From Robertkochia solimangrovi (GTDB taxonomy: Bacteria > Bacteroidota > Bacteroidia > Flavobacteriales > Flavobacteriaceae), in assembly GCF_007279655.1 (NCBI RefSeq), contig NZ_QKWN01000006.1, forward strand, positions 264,033 through 328,032: 64,000 bases of DNA. The letters run 5' to 3'. The notes below the pieces were generated by a model that saw only the letters and a program-made list of their open reading frames with translations, did no database searches and was not told where the DNA came from. This document shows positions 462-28,640 of this stretch, piece after piece (positions within the stretch are counted from its first letter, which is position 1; the number at the start of each line of letters is the position of its first letter). The position numbers were made by a program, and so were the translations under genes.

Positions 462-2015
462 ATGAAAAACTCCTCAAACTTATTGTTAACCATACTCTTG
501 TCACTATTCATTGTGTCGTGTAGTAAGGATGACGACCCGGGAACCGGAAACGGCGAAGGACAGGGAAATGGAAATGAAGTTGAACTGAACAGCGAGATCA
601 ATGATTTCGTATGGAAAGCGATGAACTTCTGGTATTACTGGCAATCGGATGTTACCGCTCTTGCCGATTCCAAAGATGATGATCAGGATGATTATTATAC
701 CTACCTCAATGGATATTCTGACTCAGAAGACCTTTTTGATGATTTGGTGTATCAGCCCGGAGTGGTCGATGATTTCTCCTGGTATATACCGGACGTTGAA
801 GAACAGCTTAACGAATTCCGCGGAATTTCTTACACCTATGGAATCAACCTGGGCTATTATCTGGTACGTGTATCCAGTGACAGTGATGATGCGGTTGTTT
901 ATGTGACCTATGTTGTTCCCGGTTCTCCGGCAGAAGCAGCTGGAATTACCAGAGGAGACCTGATCTATAGTGTTGATGGTACCGTGCTTACCGTAAACAA
1001 CGTAAATTCAGCGATCGGTCCGTTATATTATAACCCTACTGTGTCCCTGGGAATCGCAAAGATCGAAGATGGTAACTATACGCCACAGGGCGATGACATC
1101 GAGATCAGTGCCGCAGAGATCACTGAGAATCCTGTGTTTTATCATAGTGTCATAGAAAAAGAAGGCAAAAAGATCGGCTATCTGATGTATAATGGCTTCA
1201 GAAGTACTTTCCACAAGGAACTAAATGATGTATTCGGAGAATTTAAATCTGCCGGAGTTGAGGAACTTGTGCTTGACCTTAGATATAACGGTGGTGGATC
1301 TGTTCTAACCTCTGCCTACCTCGCCAGTATGATCAGTGGCAAAATGAGCACAGAATCTGTTTTCGCCAGCCTGAAGTACAACAGTAAAAGAAATGAAGCA
1401 AACGGATATACGTTCCCTTTCTATAATAATGCAGCGGTATTTGATAAAACTACCGGACTTTATACCGGTGAGAGTGTTACCATAAATCGTTTGTCAAACC
1501 TGACAAGACTTTATGTGATCACTACCCGCAGAACTGCTTCTGCAAGTGAAATGATTATTAACGGACTGCGCCCGAGCATGGAAGTGATCACTATTGGAGA
1601 AACCACTGTGGGTAAAAATGAAGGCTCTAATACACTTGTCGATTCTCCTCCGACATCTGCCAGCGATGAAGAGGCTTATCTTGATGTTGACAATCGTAAT
1701 CCAGCTCATGAAGTAGGATTACAACCGATCACCTTCAGAATCTACAACTCCCTTGGTCAAAGCGAATACACCGATGGATTTGAGCCTAAAGAAACCGTTG
1801 TGGAAGCCGATTATGTGAGTGGTCCGTTATTGCCGATTGGTGATCCGGAAGAAGGGCTCCTAAAGGCAGTTCTCGATGATATGTTCGGTATTAGTGCTAA
1901 ATCAGCCTTACAACGACCTGGAACAACCACCAGTAAACTGAGCACCATCAAAGGCAAAAAATTCGATTCTGAAATGTTCGTTCTCCCCGGAGAAATGGAA
2001 TATCTTGAAAAATAA
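462..2015 (+). CDS. S41 family C-terminal-processing-like peptidase lipoprotein
   Basis: Predicted serine protease of the S41 (CtpA/Prc/tricorn-core) family, 518 residues from the ATG at 462. The frame is open upstream to 381, but only the 462 start gives a proper lipoprotein signal (hydrophobic LLLTILLSLFIV then SCS). The Cys is followed by KDDD, resembling the acidic lipoprotein export signal of Bacteroidota surface lipoproteins. In order it has an N-terminal helical region, a PDZ-like segment (VVPGSPAEAAGITRGDLIYSVDG), and the S41 core with LDLRYNGGG. The catalytic Ser (about 360, TASASE) and Lys (about 385, TVGKNEG) are 25 residues apart, as in Prc. The substrate is unknown. A paralogue follows downstream, separated by a terminator. 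Confidence 0.9.
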   Translation: MKNSSNLLLTILLSLFIVSCSKDDDPGTGNGEGQGNGNEVELNSEINDFVWKAMNFWYYWQSDVTALADSKDDDQDDYYTYLNGYSDSEDLFDDLVYQPGVVDDFSWYIPDVEEQLNEFRGISYTYGINLGYYLVRVSSDSDDAVVYVTYVVPGSPAEAAGITRGDLIYSVDGTVLTVNNVNSAIGPLYYNPTVSLGIAKIEDGNYTPQGDDIEISAAEITENPVFYHSVIEKEGKKIGYLMYNGFRSTFHKELNDVFGEFKSAGVEELVLDLRYNGGGSVLTSAYLASMISGKMSTESVFASLKYNSKRNEANGYTFPFYNNAAVFDKTTGLYTGESVTINRLSNLTRLYVITTRRTASASEMIINGLRPSMEVITIGETTVGKNEGSNTLVDSPPTSASDEEAYLDVDNRNPAHEVGLQPITFRIYNSLGQSEYTDGFEPKETVVEADYVSGPLLPIGDPEEGLLKAVLDDMFGISAKSALQRPGTTTSKLSTIKGKKFDSEMFVLPGEMEYLEK

Positions 2016-2030
2016 GTGATACAGACTCAT

Positions 2031-2059
2031 AAAAAAAACGCTCCCAGAGCGTTTTTTTT
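2031..2059 (+). terminator. Rho-independent terminator between the two S41 genes
   Basis: An A-run, then stem CGCTC, loop CCA, stem GAGCG, then eight T. The A/T flanks extend the stem. It lies 15 nt after the first S41 stop codon and 16 nt before the second S41 start. Confidence 0.75.
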
Positions 2060-2074
2060 ATACCTTAACCTAAG

Positions 2075-3493
2075 ATGAAAGAACTTAGATCAATCCTCCC
2101 CTTTTGCCTACTATTTCTCACCCTTGCAGGGTGTGATGACCTCGACGACAAAATATATACTCCGGATAATACTCTGGAAGTTCAGGACTTCATCTGGAAA
2201 GGACTAAACCATTATTATTACTGGCAGGAAAGTGTTGGAGATCTTAGTGATAACAGATTCCCCTCTAATGAAGCTTATACTGATTTTCTGGAGAACTATA
2301 CCGATCCGGAAGCGCTCTTTGACCATTTATTATCCGATGAAGATCGTTTTAGCTACATCACCAGTGATTATCGAGAACTTCAGAATTCTCAGGCCGGAAC
2401 CGATCTTTCCAGCGGTATGGAATTCGGACTGGTTCGTGTCTCGGGCACTGATGATGTTCTGGGATATGTACGATACATCATTCCCGGTTCCAATGCCGCC
2501 TCCAAACCTGTTAAACGAGGTGACCTTTTTAACAGCATTAATGGAATTCATTTAACCATTGATAATTATTATGATCTGTTATATAATGATGCTATATCCT
2601 TTACTATTGGAAAGGCGACCTTAGATAATTCAGGTACAGTAATCGACACCGGGGAAACGGTGGAACTGTTAAAATTACAGCTTACTGAAAATCCTGTTTT
2701 AATCGCTAAGGTTTTACAGGCAGGAGACCTTTCGGTGGGTTATCTGATGTATAATCGATTCACCAGAACTTTCGAAAATGAACTGAATCAGGCATTTGGG
2801 GATCTGGCACGTGAAAATATTCAGGAGTTGATCATCGATCTAAGATATAACCCTGGCGGATCGATCAGTACCGCAACGCTGCTTGCGAGTCTGATTACCG
2901 GACAATTCAATGGCAAGTTATTTACCAGATTGGTATATAACAGCAAAGTGCAGCAAGAGATCAGTTCCGGCAACAGTGAATATCATTTATCTGACCGGAT
3001 CGACGGAATTTCACTGAATCAACTCAGTCTGAACCGGGTCTATATCATAACCAGTTCCCGAACCGCATCAGCCAGTGAACTGATAATTAATGGTCTTAAC
3101 CCGTATATCGATATTATAAAAGTAGGTGATGTAACAACTGGTAAGAACGAAGCCTCGATAACCCTTTACGATTCTCCGAGTTTTGGTTTTGATGATCCAG
3201 GTTTAAATCCGAATCATACCTGGGCAATGCAACCCTTGGTTTCACGGAATCAGAATGCCGATGGTTTCTCTGACTATACGGATGGATTTCAACCCGACTA
3301 CCTCCTGAAAGAAAACCTCCGGGATCTGGGGATACTTGGAGAAACGGATGAACCCTTACTGGCCAGAACACTGGAATTGATCACTTCTGTTTCTTCCAAA
3401 ATCACCACTAAATATCCACCGTATCCCGCCGATCCTATCGATGGCTCTGAGAATAAGGGTCCGGCATCCGGAAATATGCTTGACGACCAATAA
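2075..3493 (+). CDS. S41 family peptidase lipoprotein (paralogue of upstream gene)
   Basis: A 472-residue S41 serine protease closely similar in layout to the preceding gene: lipoprotein signal (FCLLFLTLAGC), the same motif around FIWKGLNHYYYWQESV, a PDZ-like segment (IIPGSNAASKPVKRGDLFNSING), and the S41 core with IDLRYNPGG. The catalytic Ser is in TASASELIINGLNP and the Lys in TTGKNEAS, again 25 residues apart. The residues after Cys (DDLDD) are acidic, so surface display is plausible. It starts just after the upstream terminator, so it may need read-through or its own weak promoter. The pair looks like a tandem duplication followed by divergence. Substrate unknown. Confidence 0.9.
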   Translation: MKELRSILPFCLLFLTLAGCDDLDDKIYTPDNTLEVQDFIWKGLNHYYYWQESVGDLSDNRFPSNEAYTDFLENYTDPEALFDHLLSDEDRFSYITSDYRELQNSQAGTDLSSGMEFGLVRVSGTDDVLGYVRYIIPGSNAASKPVKRGDLFNSINGIHLTIDNYYDLLYNDAISFTIGKATLDNSGTVIDTGETVELLKLQLTENPVLIAKVLQAGDLSVGYLMYNRFTRTFENELNQAFGDLARENIQELIIDLRYNPGGSISTATLLASLITGQFNGKLFTRLVYNSKVQQEISSGNSEYHLSDRIDGISLNQLSLNRVYIITSSRTASASELIINGLNPYIDIIKVGDVTTGKNEASITLYDSPSFGFDDPGLNPNHTWAMQPLVSRNQNADGFSDYTDGFQPDYLLKENLRDLGILGETDEPLLARTLELITSVSSKITTKYPPYPADPIDGSENKGPASGNMLDDQ

Positions 3494-3530
3494 AAAAGGC
3501 CGGTTGCGCATTTGCAGACCGGCCCTTTTA
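3494..3530. terminator. Bidirectional terminator between convergent genes
   Basis: A perfect 7-bp stem GGCCGGT/ACCGGCC (3498-3504 with 3518-3524) is flanked by A-rich and T-rich runs on both sides. It sits between the S41 stop (3493) and the minus-strand beta-propeller stop (3546), so it can serve both transcripts. Confidence 0.8.
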
Positions 3531-3545
3531 CCATTGCTTCCAGAA

Positions 3546-4601
3546 TTAATCGTTGAAATAAACTCCACCAGGAATGATTCCAGCGGTAAAAGTTTGTACT
3601 TGATTAAAGTTCGTAATATCAAAGATGATCACAGATCCGCGACTTGCATAATCTCCCGCATCGGTTCCAAACAAATATCCGTCATGTGCGGTCAACGAAT
3701 AGAATGACCCCTCGAATGCAGCCGTATCAGGTAAAGCTTGCGTTGAGACCGTAGTTTGATAAACGCCCCCATTAAGCGTATAGAACATATTACTTCCCGC
3801 TGCTGTCAGATTAGAAGGGTGATCTGTTACTCCGAAAGCCAAATTAAGAGTCACCTCATTCGTGGTCATATCTATTTTCACCAGTTCTCCGGCAGTTTCT
3901 TCATCAGCATAAGAAGGTTTTCCTCCACATAGTACCCATAACGTATTTCCGGAAATGACCATGCTATTAGGACTGTAGGCTACGGTAATGGTTTTTACCA
4001 CCGTTTCATCTGTAGGATCGATCACCGAAATCAGGTTATTCTGACCGTATCCACCCTGATGAGCCACATAGATATAAGTCCCGTTATAAAGAATTTTTTC
4101 AGGTCCGAAATCAACAGGAATTTCTCCGGTAACAGTCTTTGAGTCCAGATCGATAACCGACACAAAATCATCATCATTATCATAAGGGTCTCCCCAGTTG
4201 GTTACAAATCCTTTGTCATTAGTTCCTGCGAAGGCTCTTGGCTGTAATTGACCTTCCTCAATCGTTGCTGTATTTTCCAAGGTATAACGATCTGCAACGA
4301 CAATTCGGTTTGAATTGTTCACAACCACATATGCATCATCACCGGCAAAACCAAGTGATTGTACTATATTTCCAAGTTCTTCATCGTTTACTCCCTGATA
4401 CACCTCATTCTCGATCTGTGAAAGATCCTGAGGAATGAAGCTGAGTGTTCCAGTACCGTTATTGAACGGACCTTCATTGGTTATCAGTATACCATTCGCA
4501 TAATCACCTGTGATGATTTCTGTAGTATCATCATCATTACTACAGGAAACTAAAAACAGGACACCCAGTAAAGCAAAACCGAATCTTTTAAATTGTTTCA
4601 T
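3546..4601 (-). CDS. YncE/DUF5074-like beta-propeller lipoprotein, candidate BtuG-type B12-binding surface protein
   Basis: A 351-residue lipoprotein: signal LLGVLFLVSCS, Cys followed by SNDDD (surface export-like). The rest is repetitive beta-propeller sequence of the YncE/DUF5074 type, with repeated units such as ILYNGTYIYVAHQGG, SVIDPTDETVVKTI and NSMVISGNTLWVLCGG. Its start is 2 nt downstream of the btuB stop, so the two are almost certainly cotranscribed behind the cobalamin riboswitch. In gut Bacteroides, BtuG is a surface beta-propeller lipoprotein that binds B12 tightly and docks on BtuB. Position, fold and riboswitch control support the same role here. The assignment is inference: no ligand-contact residues were checked, and YncE-like propellers also accompany other TonB receptors. 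Confidence 0.75.
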   Translation of the reverse strand: MKQFKRFGFALLGVLFLVSCSNDDDTTEIITGDYANGILITNEGPFNNGTGTLSFIPQDLSQIENEVYQGVNDEELGNIVQSLGFAGDDAYVVVNNSNRIVVADRYTLENTATIEEGQLQPRAFAGTNDKGFVTNWGDPYDNDDDFVSVIDLDSKTVTGEIPVDFGPEKILYNGTYIYVAHQGGYGQNNLISVIDPTDETVVKTITVAYSPNSMVISGNTLWVLCGGKPSYADEETAGELVKIDMTTNEVTLNLAFGVTDHPSNLTAAGSNMFYTLNGGVYQTTVSTQALPDTAAFEGSFYSLTAHDGYLFGTDAGDYASRGSVIIFDITNFNQVQTFTAGIIPGGVYFND

Positions 4602-25837: not shown

Positions 25838-27214
25838 ATGAATCAAACGCTGCTAATTCTACTGATCGCGATCGGGACTTCTATACTCGGGCTCGTCCTG
25901 GGAATTTATATTCAAAAACTGAAGAACAATGCATTGAAAAGTGCAGCCGCCGCCAGTGCTGATCAGCTCCGGACTTCTATCGAAGAATTGAAATCCAGTT
26001 TGAAGGAGGTAAGAGAAGAGCGGGAACGACTTCGTTCAGATAAAGAACAGATCGCCATTCAACTTTCCCGCAGAGATACCGAAATGGAGAACCTCAAAGT
26101 ACGCCTTGAGGAAGAAAAACAGGAAGTAGAACAATTACAAATAAGATTCCAAAAAGAATTTCAAATACTGGCCAATAAGATTTTAGAAGAGAAATCAGAG
26201 AAGTTCACCCTGCAAAACAAGGAAAATCTAAAAAACATCCTTACCCCTCTACAGGAAAAGATCATGCTTTTCGAGAAAAGAGTAGAAGACACCAATAAAG
26301 AGAATATCGTACGTCACTCTTCCCTTCAGGAGCAATTGAAGAATCTTAAGGAGCTCAATCAACAAATCACTAAAGAAGCCTCTAACCTTACCCGAGCTTT
26401 AAAAGGAGATACAAAGATGCAGGGTAACTGGGGAGAACTGGTACTGGAGCGGGTTCTTGAAAAATCAGGTCTTGAAAAAGACAGTGAATACTTTGTTCAG
26501 AATAGCTTCACGACAGAAGACGGTCGACGCGTACTTCCGGATGTCATCATCAATCTTCCTGATAATAAGAAAATGATCATCGATTCCAAGGTATCGCTGA
26601 TCGCTTATGAACGTTACGTCAATGCAGATGATGAGCAACTACGCCCTGCACTGCTGAAAGATCATGTGAATTCTATCAATAAACATGTGGAACAACTCTC
26701 CTCCAAAAACTATCATCAGTTATATGAAATGGAGAGTCCTGATTTCGTATTGCTTTTCATCCCACTGGAACCGGCCTTTGCGCTGGCCTCACAAAGTGAT
26801 CCGCAATTATATAATACGGCCTTTGAGAAGAATATCGTAATCGTTACCCCATCTACGTTGCTGGCAACACTCAGAACTATTGACAGCATGTGGCAGCATG
26901 ACAAGCAACACAAACATGCAATGGACATCGCTACACAGGCCGGAAGATTATATGACCAGTTCAAAAATCTGCTGGATGATCTGGAAAAGATCGGTAAGCA
27001 ATTACAAACTGTACAGAACTCATACGCTTCATCGATGACCAAACTAACCGGTAGAGGCAATCTACTCGGCAAGGTTGAAAAATTACGTAAACTCGGAGCT
27101 AAAGCCAGCAAGCAGATCGATCAAAAATGGCTGAACCGAATTGAAGAAGAGGACGATGATGAGCAGGAATCACTTCATGATCAGAACACTACCAGTAACC
27201 CGTTGAAAAACTAA
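25838..27214 (+). CDS. rmuC: DNA recombination protein RmuC
   Basis: 458 residues. N-terminal membrane helix (LLILLIAIGTSILGLVLGIYI), then a long coiled coil (about 40-190, rich in E/K/R), then the RmuC nuclease-like core: GNWGELVLERVLEKSGL, RVLPDVIINLPDNKKMIIDSKVSL and FIPLEPAFALA. The core resembles the restriction-endonuclease fold (D...DSK). RmuC limits inversions at short repeats and has been linked to DNA-defence and recombination in other bacteria. It is divergent from the susC operon, and its stop is directly followed by the satD operator array. Confidence 0.93.
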   Translation: MNQTLLILLIAIGTSILGLVLGIYIQKLKNNALKSAAAASADQLRTSIEELKSSLKEVREERERLRSDKEQIAIQLSRRDTEMENLKVRLEEEKQEVEQLQIRFQKEFQILANKILEEKSEKFTLQNKENLKNILTPLQEKIMLFEKRVEDTNKENIVRHSSLQEQLKNLKELNQQITKEASNLTRALKGDTKMQGNWGELVLERVLEKSGLEKDSEYFVQNSFTTEDGRRVLPDVIINLPDNKKMIIDSKVSLIAYERYVNADDEQLRPALLKDHVNSINKHVEQLSSKNYHQLYEMESPDFVLLFIPLEPAFALASQSDPQLYNTAFEKNIVIVTPSTLLATLRTIDSMWQHDKQHKHAMDIATQAGRLYDQFKNLLDDLEKIGKQLQTVQNSYASSMTKLTGRGNLLGKVEKLRKLGAKASKQIDQKWLNRIEEEDDDEQESLHDQNTTSNPLKN

Positions 27215-27215
27215 T

Positions 27216-27291
27216 TATCGCTTAATTAAACGATATTAAATTTTATCGCTTTTTTAAACGATATTTTGAAATATCATATTTTTAGACGATA
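27216..27291 (+). promoter_or_regulatory. Array of three 20-bp palindromes, predicted operator of satD
   Basis: Three copies of TATCG-N10-CGATA start at 27216, 27244 and 27272 (the third begins TATCA). The spacing is exactly 28 bp, and conserved bases extend into the N10 (copies 1 and 2 share CTT and TTAAA) and after it (TATT). The array fills the gap between the rmuC stop and satD, ending 9 bp before the satD ATG. Possible -7 elements (TAAATTTT at 27237, TATTTTTA at 27277) lie within it, so binding would block transcription. SatD carries a C-terminal helix-turn-helix and is the obvious candidate binder (inference). Confidence 0.75.
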
Positions 27292-27300
27292 TTTACCCTT

Positions 27301-27924
27301 ATGACAAGTGTAATAACCGGAGATATCGTTAATTCCAGAGGCGTTTCAGACCCTCAGAAATGGCTAAAACCATTGAAAAAACTACTTGCAGATCGTGTTG
27401 AAGACGAACTGAAGTGGGAAATCTTCAGAGGTGATAGTTTTCAGGCTGAAATAACCGATCCTGCCAAAGCGTTTGAAATGATCGTATTGATCAAATCGAC
27501 CATAAAGATGATCAAAGGTCTCGATGTACGAATGGCACTAGGGATCGGAGTTAAGGAAGGAGAGCCGGTAAACATAGCAGAGGCCCGTGGAGAGGTCTAC
27601 CTGCATTCCGGAGCATTATTTGAGTCTCTGAAACAGGAGAAGCTGAGTATTGCCCTAAAATCGAATGATCCGGAAATGGATGAAGAACTGAATCTGATGT
27701 TTCAGTTAGGATGTATCGCGATGGATAACTGGACCCCAAATTCAGCAGAGATAGTACGTCTGAGCATTTTGAACCCGACTTTATCACAAACCGAACTCGG
27801 AATGCTTATCGGAATCAGACAGAATACCGTTAGCGAACGACAGAAACGTGCGTATCTCGATGAAGTACTGGCCATAAGAGATCATTACAAAAAAAGAATT
27901 GACCACTTTATTGATAAAAACTGA
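27301..27924 (+). CDS. SatD family protein with C-terminal helix-turn-helix
   Basis: 207 residues with the SatD-family N-terminal opening TSVITGDIVNSRGV, a mid region WEIFRGDSFQAEI, and LGIGVKEGEPVNIAEARGEVYLHSG. These resemble a nucleotide-cyclase-like or GGDEF-like fold in outline. The last 60 residues form a probable HTH (PTLSQTELGMLIGIRQNTVSERQKRAYLDEV). SatD was named from a streptococcal acid-tolerance locus, but its biochemical role is not known. It is 2 nt upstream of a DUF3307 membrane protein, a pairing that suggests one system. The palindromic array before it suggests autoregulation. Confidence 0.8.
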   Translation: MTSVITGDIVNSRGVSDPQKWLKPLKKLLADRVEDELKWEIFRGDSFQAEITDPAKAFEMIVLIKSTIKMIKGLDVRMALGIGVKEGEPVNIAEARGEVYLHSGALFESLKQEKLSIALKSNDPEMDEELNLMFQLGCIAMDNWTPNSAEIVRLSILNPTLSQTELGMLIGIRQNTVSERQKRAYLDEVLAIRDHYKKRIDHFIDKN

Positions 27925-27926
27925 CC

Positions 27927-28640
27927 ATGGAACTATTCTTAAAACTGCTTATCGCGCATCTGCTGGGAGATTTTGTATTGCAACCGTACAGCTGGGTACA
28001 GGACAAGAACCTTAAAAAACTCCGATCCCCCCGACTGTATTTACATACCGGAGTTCATCTCATATTGACCTTACTCATGCTGAGCACTGAACTTTCGTTA
28101 TGGTATCTGGCTGTTATCATCGCTATCACCCATTTCCTGATCGATGCAATGAAACTTAAACTACAAAATGAAAAAAACGGCAGACTCCTATTTTTTATCG
28201 ATCAGCTATTACACCTACTCGTCATAATCGTCATAGCCCTATTCTTTGTCGATACGATCTCGCTACCGGATCTGAATAATTCACAATGGTTCACCATTTG
28301 CGGACTCCTCTTCCTGACGCAACCGGCTTCGATCATTATCAAGACCCTTATTTCGGTATATACCCCTAAAACGGAAATGGAAGCCGATGATTCATTGCAA
28401 AATGCCGGTAAGTATATCGGGATCATCGAGCGGATACTCGTACTAATTTTTATCATGACAAACCATTGGGAAGGTGTCGGATTCCTGATCGCTGCCAAAT
28501 CGATTTTCAGGTTCAGCGACCTGACTCAGGCAAAAGACCGGAAGCTCACAGAATATATTCTGATTGGAACCTTATTGAGTTTTGGCTTTGCAATCGTAAC
28601 AGGACTAATCGTAATGCATTTTGTCAGGACCGCTGCTTGA
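27927..28640 (+). CDS. DUF3307 family integral membrane protein
   Basis: 237 residues, with about six or seven hydrophobic segments. The family-typical N-terminus LLIAHLLGDFVLQPYSWVQDK contains conserved H, D and Q residues, followed by LYLHTGVHLILTL and ITHFLIDAMKL with more His/Asp. The His/Asp pattern in membrane segments is reminiscent of metal-binding or membrane hydrolase sites, but no function is established. It is translationally coupled to satD (2 nt gap). Its 3' end overlaps the end of the convergent secreted-protein gene by 17 nt. Confidence 0.85.
   Translation: MELFLKLLIAHLLGDFVLQPYSWVQDKNLKKLRSPRLYLHTGVHLILTLLMLSTELSLWYLAVIIAITHFLIDAMKLKLQNEKNGRLLFFIDQLLHLLVIIVIALFFVDTISLPDLNNSQWFTICGLLFLTQPASIIIKTLISVYTPKTEMEADDSLQNAGKYIGIIERILVLIFIMTNHWEGVGFLIAAKSIFRFSDLTQAKDRKLTEYILIGTLLSFGFAIVTGLIVMHFVRTAA

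Follow-up and report, generated by a model that had tools for sequence, protein, structure and literature searches.

The satD gene of Robertkochia solimangrovi very probably encodes a protein that binds DNA sequence-specifically and regulates its own operon, satD-DUF3307, by acting on palindromic operator units placed directly in front of the gene. This reading, which comes from comparative sequence analysis, would assign the poorly described SatD family a specific molecular function that can be tested, and a gene that it probably regulates. The family is named after the sat operon of Streptococcus mutans, for "secretion and acid tolerance". Among the SatD titles in the literature matches listed, none concerned SatD autoregulation, an operator array or a DUF3307 partner. 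Searches on PF16264 and the S. mutans sat genes found no pertinent literature, and word searches on regulator-operator co-evolution gave nothing pertinent. In the excerpt of PMC10326533, the one paper found on the SatD family, the protein is linked to acid tolerance only.

The probable operator array and its linkage to satD

The window is the whole stretch of DNA that was analysed, 64,000 nucleotides in length. Its array and the neighbouring genes are as follows.

27216-27235, no strand assigned: operator unit 1, exact TATCG-N10-CGATA
27244-27263, no strand assigned: operator unit 2, exact TATCG-N10-CGATA
27272-27291, no strand assigned: operator unit 3, TATCATATTTTTAGACGATA, one mismatch, left half-site TATCA
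25838-27214, + strand: rmuC, upstream neighbour, outside the module
27301-27924, + strand: satD (PF16264), proposed autoregulator
27927-28640, + strand: DUF3307 membrane protein (PF11750), second gene of the presumed operon and partner of satD

The step between unit starts is exactly 28 bp, and the 76-bp array lies inside the 86-bp gap between rmuC and satD, ending 9 bp before the satD start codon. The initial annotation had described both the spacing and this placement correctly. Its count of three TATCG-N10-CGATA palindromes was a slight overstatement, as the window holds two exact copies (at 27216 and 27244, with 0.07 expected by chance) and the third unit has one mismatch. Scoring every place in the window for three units at period 28 gave 29 out of 30 at 27216 and 18 at the best non-overlapping place, and the same scan of 20 mononucleotide-shuffled windows, with starts at TAT only, gave a best place of 16-20 in each. 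A search of the whole genome for a TATC-type tandem pair (up to 3 mismatches) found the satD array alone, with a control count of 0, and a generic TAT-type tandem pattern gave the same count, as two overlapping matches. The exact single core TATCG-N10-CGATA occurs at 21 places in the genome versus 5 for the pattern read backwards, and among the 21 the central six bases are A/T-only in the two satD copies alone.

The other single-core places have mixed centres. A fourth half-site-like stretch, ATATCGTTA, lies at 27323-27331 of the window within satD, over the GDIVNS codons, and may be a codon coincidence.

A satD match was found in 2 of 5 genomes of the genus and in 217 of 397 genomes of the family. 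In the phylum the count was at least 79 of 395, obtained with a less sensitive Pfam model that missed satD genomes found by the family search (G131 and G320, for example). The family loci were the top of the match list, about half of the 217 genomes, and weaker orthologues are under-sampled apart from those loci fetched via DUF3307. The start rule reduced 127 family loci to 125 (L088 and L140 were lost), and removal of seven identical proteins left 118, of which 116 with at least one unit form the covariation set. L163 and L188 were dropped from a further locus set, and L196 (a SatD match without start motif) and L201 (no SatD found) from the DUF3307-fetched set.

In the 118 distinct Flavobacteriaceae loci the 150 bp upstream of satD match themselves at a shift of 28 with a mean of 0.531, and at other shifts between 5 and 60 with 0.27-0.36, except for shift 56 (0.449). 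The best shift was 28 or 29 in 110 of the 125 family loci, the seven duplicates included, versus 1 of 125 for a control stretch at −400 to −250. The same held for 36 of 48 phylum-wide loci and for 12 of 17 loci fetched via DUF3307, all of which carry a more divergent SatD. This test of the period is independent of the unit-picking rule. By that fixed rule at least one unit was found in 116 of the 118 distinct loci, with none in L084 and L109. The expectation that close satD orthologues carry the motif was hence borne out for the array architecture but not for the exact TATCG core, which is only one of many variants. More distant SatDs (L143-L172) were left unscored and their single chance units ignored, because the palindromes seen there are of AACC/GGTT or TTTCA/TGAAA form with no TAT/ATA ends and fall outside the unit-picking rule. 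In another family of the order (L173-L179) the arrays have a 29-bp step and carry AAG together with glutamine at SatD residue 179.

The array follows satD, not rmuC. Of 177 satD loci, 66 have rmuC in front of satD and in the same orientation, with part of the set extending just 1.5 kb in that direction. DUF3307, the membrane partner of unknown function in the initial annotation, lies directly downstream of satD in 175 of the 177 (duplicate proteins still included), and the two loci without it, L148 and L157, were both shorter than requested. A generic double unit was found in 107 of 217 genomes with satD versus 8 of 180 without it; the control, the double unit read backwards, occurred in 9 and 4. 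DUF3307 was present in 67 of the 68 satD-containing genomes in a survey of 120. Seven genomes scored DUF3307 without SatD, and on retrieval a divergent SatD was recognised in six of them but not in the seventh.

These six divergent SatDs (L195-L200) were matched at E values of 4e-20 to 1e-27, and a shift of 29 or 58 was best in the five upstream regions that were readable.

Promoter overlap and the sign of regulation

PMC2483708, PMC7366714, PMC6847099 and PMC9723704 give the Bacteroidetes −7 box as TAnnTTTG. TAnnTTGY appears as motif SM5 in PMC9723704, and the −33 element is described as much less evident in F. johnsoniae in PMC6847099. In the 200 bp upstream of the 116 loci we found 117 TAnnTTTG sites versus 20.8 expected, with at least one site in 78 loci. 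Ninety-five of the 117 sites lie at a single phase, in which the TA of the box forms the last two bases of a unit. A TTG ends 19-21 bases before the box at 53 of the 117 sites, a distance near that at which the preceding unit's box would lie given the 28-bp step. Furthermore, in 45 of the 116 loci no more than 10 bp separate the last unit from the start codon. The exact TAnnTTTG is absent from the region upstream of satD in the window (27151-27300), where we identified one weak candidate.

27262-27268, + strand: TATTTTG (TAnnTTG), a weak −7 box candidate that overlaps the last bases of unit 2

Since in many relatives the −7 box lies at a fixed phase over the unit end, occupied units would cover the promoter and block RNA polymerase. 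The effect on satD and DUF3307, which are presumably co-transcribed, is thus probably one of autorepression.

SatD could also bind the array as an activator, or could only position RNA polymerase there, and we regard this as unlikely. The array does contain promoter-like boxes, and the SatD helix-turn-helix resembles sigma-70 region 4 in profile matches that are weak and below the curated cut-offs (Sigma70_r4, E 0.08; sigma70-ECF, E 1.1e-5). However, both the fixed phase at which the −7 box overlaps the operator end and the closeness of the last unit to the start codon favour occlusion. SatD would also differ from region 4 in its target, which is proposed to be palindromic arrays at its own promoter and not the −35 boxes of many promoters.

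Repression would place SatD among autorepressors with palindromic operators, of which the LacI/TetR-type regulators and the type II antitoxins are well known. The regulator gene stands first in a short operon here too, with palindromes over the promoter. In contrast to those systems, the SatD arrays commonly have three units at a rigid 28- or 29-bp step, and their half-site triplet has been rewired many times within one family.

Covariation of the operator triplet with the predicted recognition helix

Each 20-bp unit has the form TAT-NNN-N8-N'N'N'-ATA. At the outer ends TAT and ATA are retained in 94-99% of 338 units and positions 4-6 vary, mostly still paired with their mirror positions, although the unit-picking rule rewards both TAT/ATA ends and palindromy and so inflates these figures. 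Between lineages the inner triplet is CGT, CAC, TCC, TAG, CTG, TAC or one of several others. The triplet centres lie 11 bp apart within a unit, about one helical turn, and because of this we propose a symmetric dimer in which two C-terminal helix-turn-helix domains would bind each unit. Adjacent SatD dimers would then sit 28 bp apart (29 bp in some lineages), a strict spacing that suggests contacts between neighbouring dimers and possibly co-operative binding.

An AlphaFold2 model of SatD (pLDDT 93.3) predicts the C-terminal helix-turn-helix that the initial annotation had recognised, with helices at residues 146-157, 163-170 and 174-183. Residues 175, 176 and 179 are on the last of these. Comparison with solved structures by sequence gave only weak helix-turn-helix matches, the best at E 0.024.

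27820-27849, + strand: predicted recognition helix, residues 174-183, with N175, T176 and E179
27835-27837, + strand: codon of E179, the residue covarying most with the operator triplet

In a mutual information analysis of the 116 arrays, residue 179 explained 0.50, 0.67 and 0.60 of the entropy at DNA positions 4, 5 and 6, and ranked first of 352 variable SatD and DUF3307 columns for all three. The next-best SatD columns reached 0.28, 0.33 and 0.45, with residue 175 second each time. Columns of DUF3307, which serve as a linkage control because the neighbouring gene has nearly the same history, reached at most 0.20, 0.32 and 0.42. The pairing of residue 179 with the triplet is as follows.

K179 (n = 37): C at position 5 in 35 of 37; TCC 33, TAC 2, TCT 1, GCC 1
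Q179 (n = 33): xAG in 32 of 33; TAG 21, AAG 10, CAG 1, TAT 1
E179 (n = 24): G or T at position 5 in 23 of 24; CGT 11, CTG 6, CGG 3, four others
M, N, T, S or G179 (n = 19): CAx (CAC or CAT) in 16 of 19
R179 (n = 3): TAC 2, CAC 1

Residue 179 is an incomplete code for the triplet, as the departures given below show. The recognition helix would read the triplet chiefly through this residue, helped by residues 175 and 176. Pairings of lysine with G, glutamate with C and glutamine with A are familiar from other proteins.

In Fitch reconstructions on one quick tree (residues 1-150, built without the helix-turn-helix; branches weighted equally, ties broken arbitrarily), 25 of 230 branches bear a change of residue 179. 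Of the 39 triplet changes, 16 fall on these branches, versus 4.2 expected (hypergeometric 1.7e-8). For the whole triplet residue 179 came first, 176 second and 175 third of 150 columns, and the 312 DUF3307 columns gave a z of at most 2.8 versus 6.6 for residue 179. Taken by single positions, residue 179 was first for position 5 (z 5.2) and third for position 4 (z 3.7), behind L119 (4.5) and T176 (4.3). For position 6 it fell outside the first eight and T176 was first (z 3.8). An independent-pairs test restricted to well-supported branches yielded 1-4 pairs, too few for significance, with the traits opposite in 0.0 on average.

The pairings recur in lineages whose helices differ in context; examples for Q179 are the RQKRARLD and GLKRAGFDE types and the 29-bp arrays of L173-L179. 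The two loci recovered later, L088 (R179, TAC) and L140 (Q179, TAG/AAG), both fit the table. Among further loci with at least two units and a residue 179 already in the table, 11 of 14 fit, seven of the 11 being Q179 and six of these seven coming from one other family of the order. The three departures are L182 and L187 (G179 but CGT) and L183 (Q179 but AGT). One-unit loci gave two that fit (L174 and L186) and one that does not (L191; Q179, TAT/TAC). L180 is unreliable, with one unit that is not TAT, and L184 (L179) and L192 (H179) have residues outside the table. The tree test, the DUF3307 columns and the recurrence in varied contexts all speak against shared ancestry as the explanation of the covariation.

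Given that the DNA variant covaries with the recognition helix of SatD, the regulator is likely to be SatD itself rather than another protein, in support of the initial proposal that SatD binds the array before its own gene. It is improbable that a different, unlinked transcription factor occupies the array and that SatD is merely the regulated gene. Such a factor would account for an array that precedes a gene, as any operator would, but not for a SatD residue that is the best of all the columns compared and changes together with the triplet on the tree; nor was a second tandem site found in the genome. The wider claim of the initial annotation, that satD and DUF3307 are a self-regulated two-gene module, appears well supported by these comparisons and can be extended to an operator code that keeps changing.

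We consider it very improbable that the palindromes are hairpins of a 5' leader RNA, or cruciforms, and not a protein-binding site. The units could form stems of 6-7 bp with loops of 6-8 bases, and partner bases co-vary as they would in a stem. However, G.T mismatches are about as frequent as A.C mismatches (44 versus 55 at positions 4-6; 40 versus 53 at position 7), hence no strand is favoured and the pairing is not that of a one-strand RNA hairpin. The 28-bp period is moreover strict although the linkers of hairpins need not be, and covariation with a protein helix would be unexpected. Least credible of all is a neutral tandem, iteron-like or mobile repeat with no regulatory role: slippage can expand direct repeats and mixed arrays exist, but the period persists as sequences diverge across the family and phylum, paired changes maintain palindromy, and the array follows satD and not the upstream gene.

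If SatD is the regulator, the loci form a natural data set: over 100 orthologous pairs of regulator and operator share one geometry, and about ten half-site triplets have changed together with the matching residues of the recognition helix. Joint change of specificity in a repressor and its operator would thereby become directly testable. Two triplet classes are mixed in 15 of the 112 arrays with at least two units, and these may be snapshots, or intermediates, of a specificity change. They also count against the proposed reading, in that a single SatD would have to accept both classes or pass over one of them.

Mixed arrays were seen in L031, L049, L039, L028 and L025, for example with a distal TATTCC and a proximal TATCAC. 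L026 has a TATTGG..CCAATA array, the only one of TGG type among the 116, beside one TATCGG..CCGATA unit, and its helix reads QSAVSER.

The SatD-DUF3307 pair as a candidate signalling module

SatD matches PF16264 over residues 5-186 (E 1.8e-9; 38 bits versus a curated cut-off of 29). Its N-terminal half is predicted to have the strand-helix order of a palm domain.

27301-27660, + strand: predicted N-terminal palm-like domain, approximately residues 1-120
27322-27324 and 27433-27435, + strand: codons of the invariant aspartates D8 and D45

In a Foldseek search with 878 matches, nearly all of the best 50 were palm-domain proteins, namely nucleotide cyclases, GGDEF domains, Cas10, GTP cyclohydrolase III and a few polymerases. 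Among the matches listed the best E value was 1.8e-3 and the TM-score by target length was at most 0.53. D8, in the first strand, and D45, in a hairpin, are shared by all SatDs compared (118 of 118 and 48 of 48), and from their position they may be metal ligands. With a palm-like domain and invariant aspartates, SatD might be expected to bind or produce a nucleotide, and the signal to which it responds may be a nucleotide. SatD resembles cyclase, GGDEF, Cas10 and GTP cyclohydrolase III palms in its predicted fold and its aspartate pair, but its palm-like domain is fused to a helix-turn-helix, no listed match has an E value at or under 1e-3 and catalysis is putative. The passages of PMC4886424 on uncharacterised cyclase-like proteins in Bacteroidetes concern DUF2652 and do not name SatD.

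DUF3307 is helical, with H11, D15, Q19, H40, H44, H69, D73, D92, Q93 and H96 invariant in 16 sequences, and is perhaps a membrane metalloenzyme. Its model had a mean pLDDT of 78.4, and no structural match to it reached an E value under 1.0. DUF3307 does match one PHROG family, of membrane proteins (E 2.1e-16), and a search of phage records for DUF3307 found none.

In the model that we propose, the palm-like domain probably senses or makes a nucleotide, which would change the occupancy of the array and so release DUF3307. The invariant aspartate pair suggests a switch linked to nucleotides, in a phylum about whose regulators little has been learned. A broader possibility, which we put forward tentatively, is that SatD and DUF3307 form a widespread nucleotide-signalling module, carried in part on plasmids, in which a cyclase-like palm fused to a helix-turn-helix shuts its own operon on a rigid DNA-protein lattice and frees a membrane enzyme upon a nucleotide signal of stress or phage. 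If so, the code would have been rewired repeatedly because the regulator has a single target, and the family would offer a natural panel of regulators and operators with matched specificities.

Pycsar and Panoptes are cyclase-effector defence pairs, and SatD-DUF3307 resembles them in that a cyclase-like protein adjoins a membrane protein and, in one plasmid (L218), in lying near Pycsar-annotated genes. It differs in that SatD carries a helix-turn-helix, that SatD and DUF3307 matched 0 families of PADLOC-DB and that the pair is common in Flavobacteriaceae genomes. The likeness to a type II toxin-antitoxin module is in the two-gene layout only.

We inspected by eye the regions upstream of plasmid-borne copies. 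Outside Bacteroidota, on gammaproteobacterial plasmids, palindromes at a 28-bp step were seen on those of Vibrio lentus (L215) and Pseudoalteromonas (L216), and at a 29-bp step on an Enterobacter kobei plasmid (L221). Escherichia coli pEC34A (L220) has similar AACC/GGTT palindromes and L219 weak ones, and no clear array was apparent on plasmids L217, L218 and L222 or in L214 (Bacteroidota). The presence of SatD-DUF3307 on small plasmids hints at a self-contained mobile module. The SatD-like/DUF3307 stretch of pEC34A had no megablast match in complete E. coli genomes.

In pEC34A (3770 bp) the SatD-like gene and DUF3307, at 1792-3481, are the main cargo, the other annotated genes being Rop, MobA and one small hypothetical. 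The pair is also found on a 10.3-kb Pseudomonas fragi plasmid (L222). On the Sphingomonas insulae plasmid (L218) the SatD-like and DUF3307 genes lie within 659-3942, beside genes annotated as a Pycsar effector and an adenylate/guanylate cyclase.
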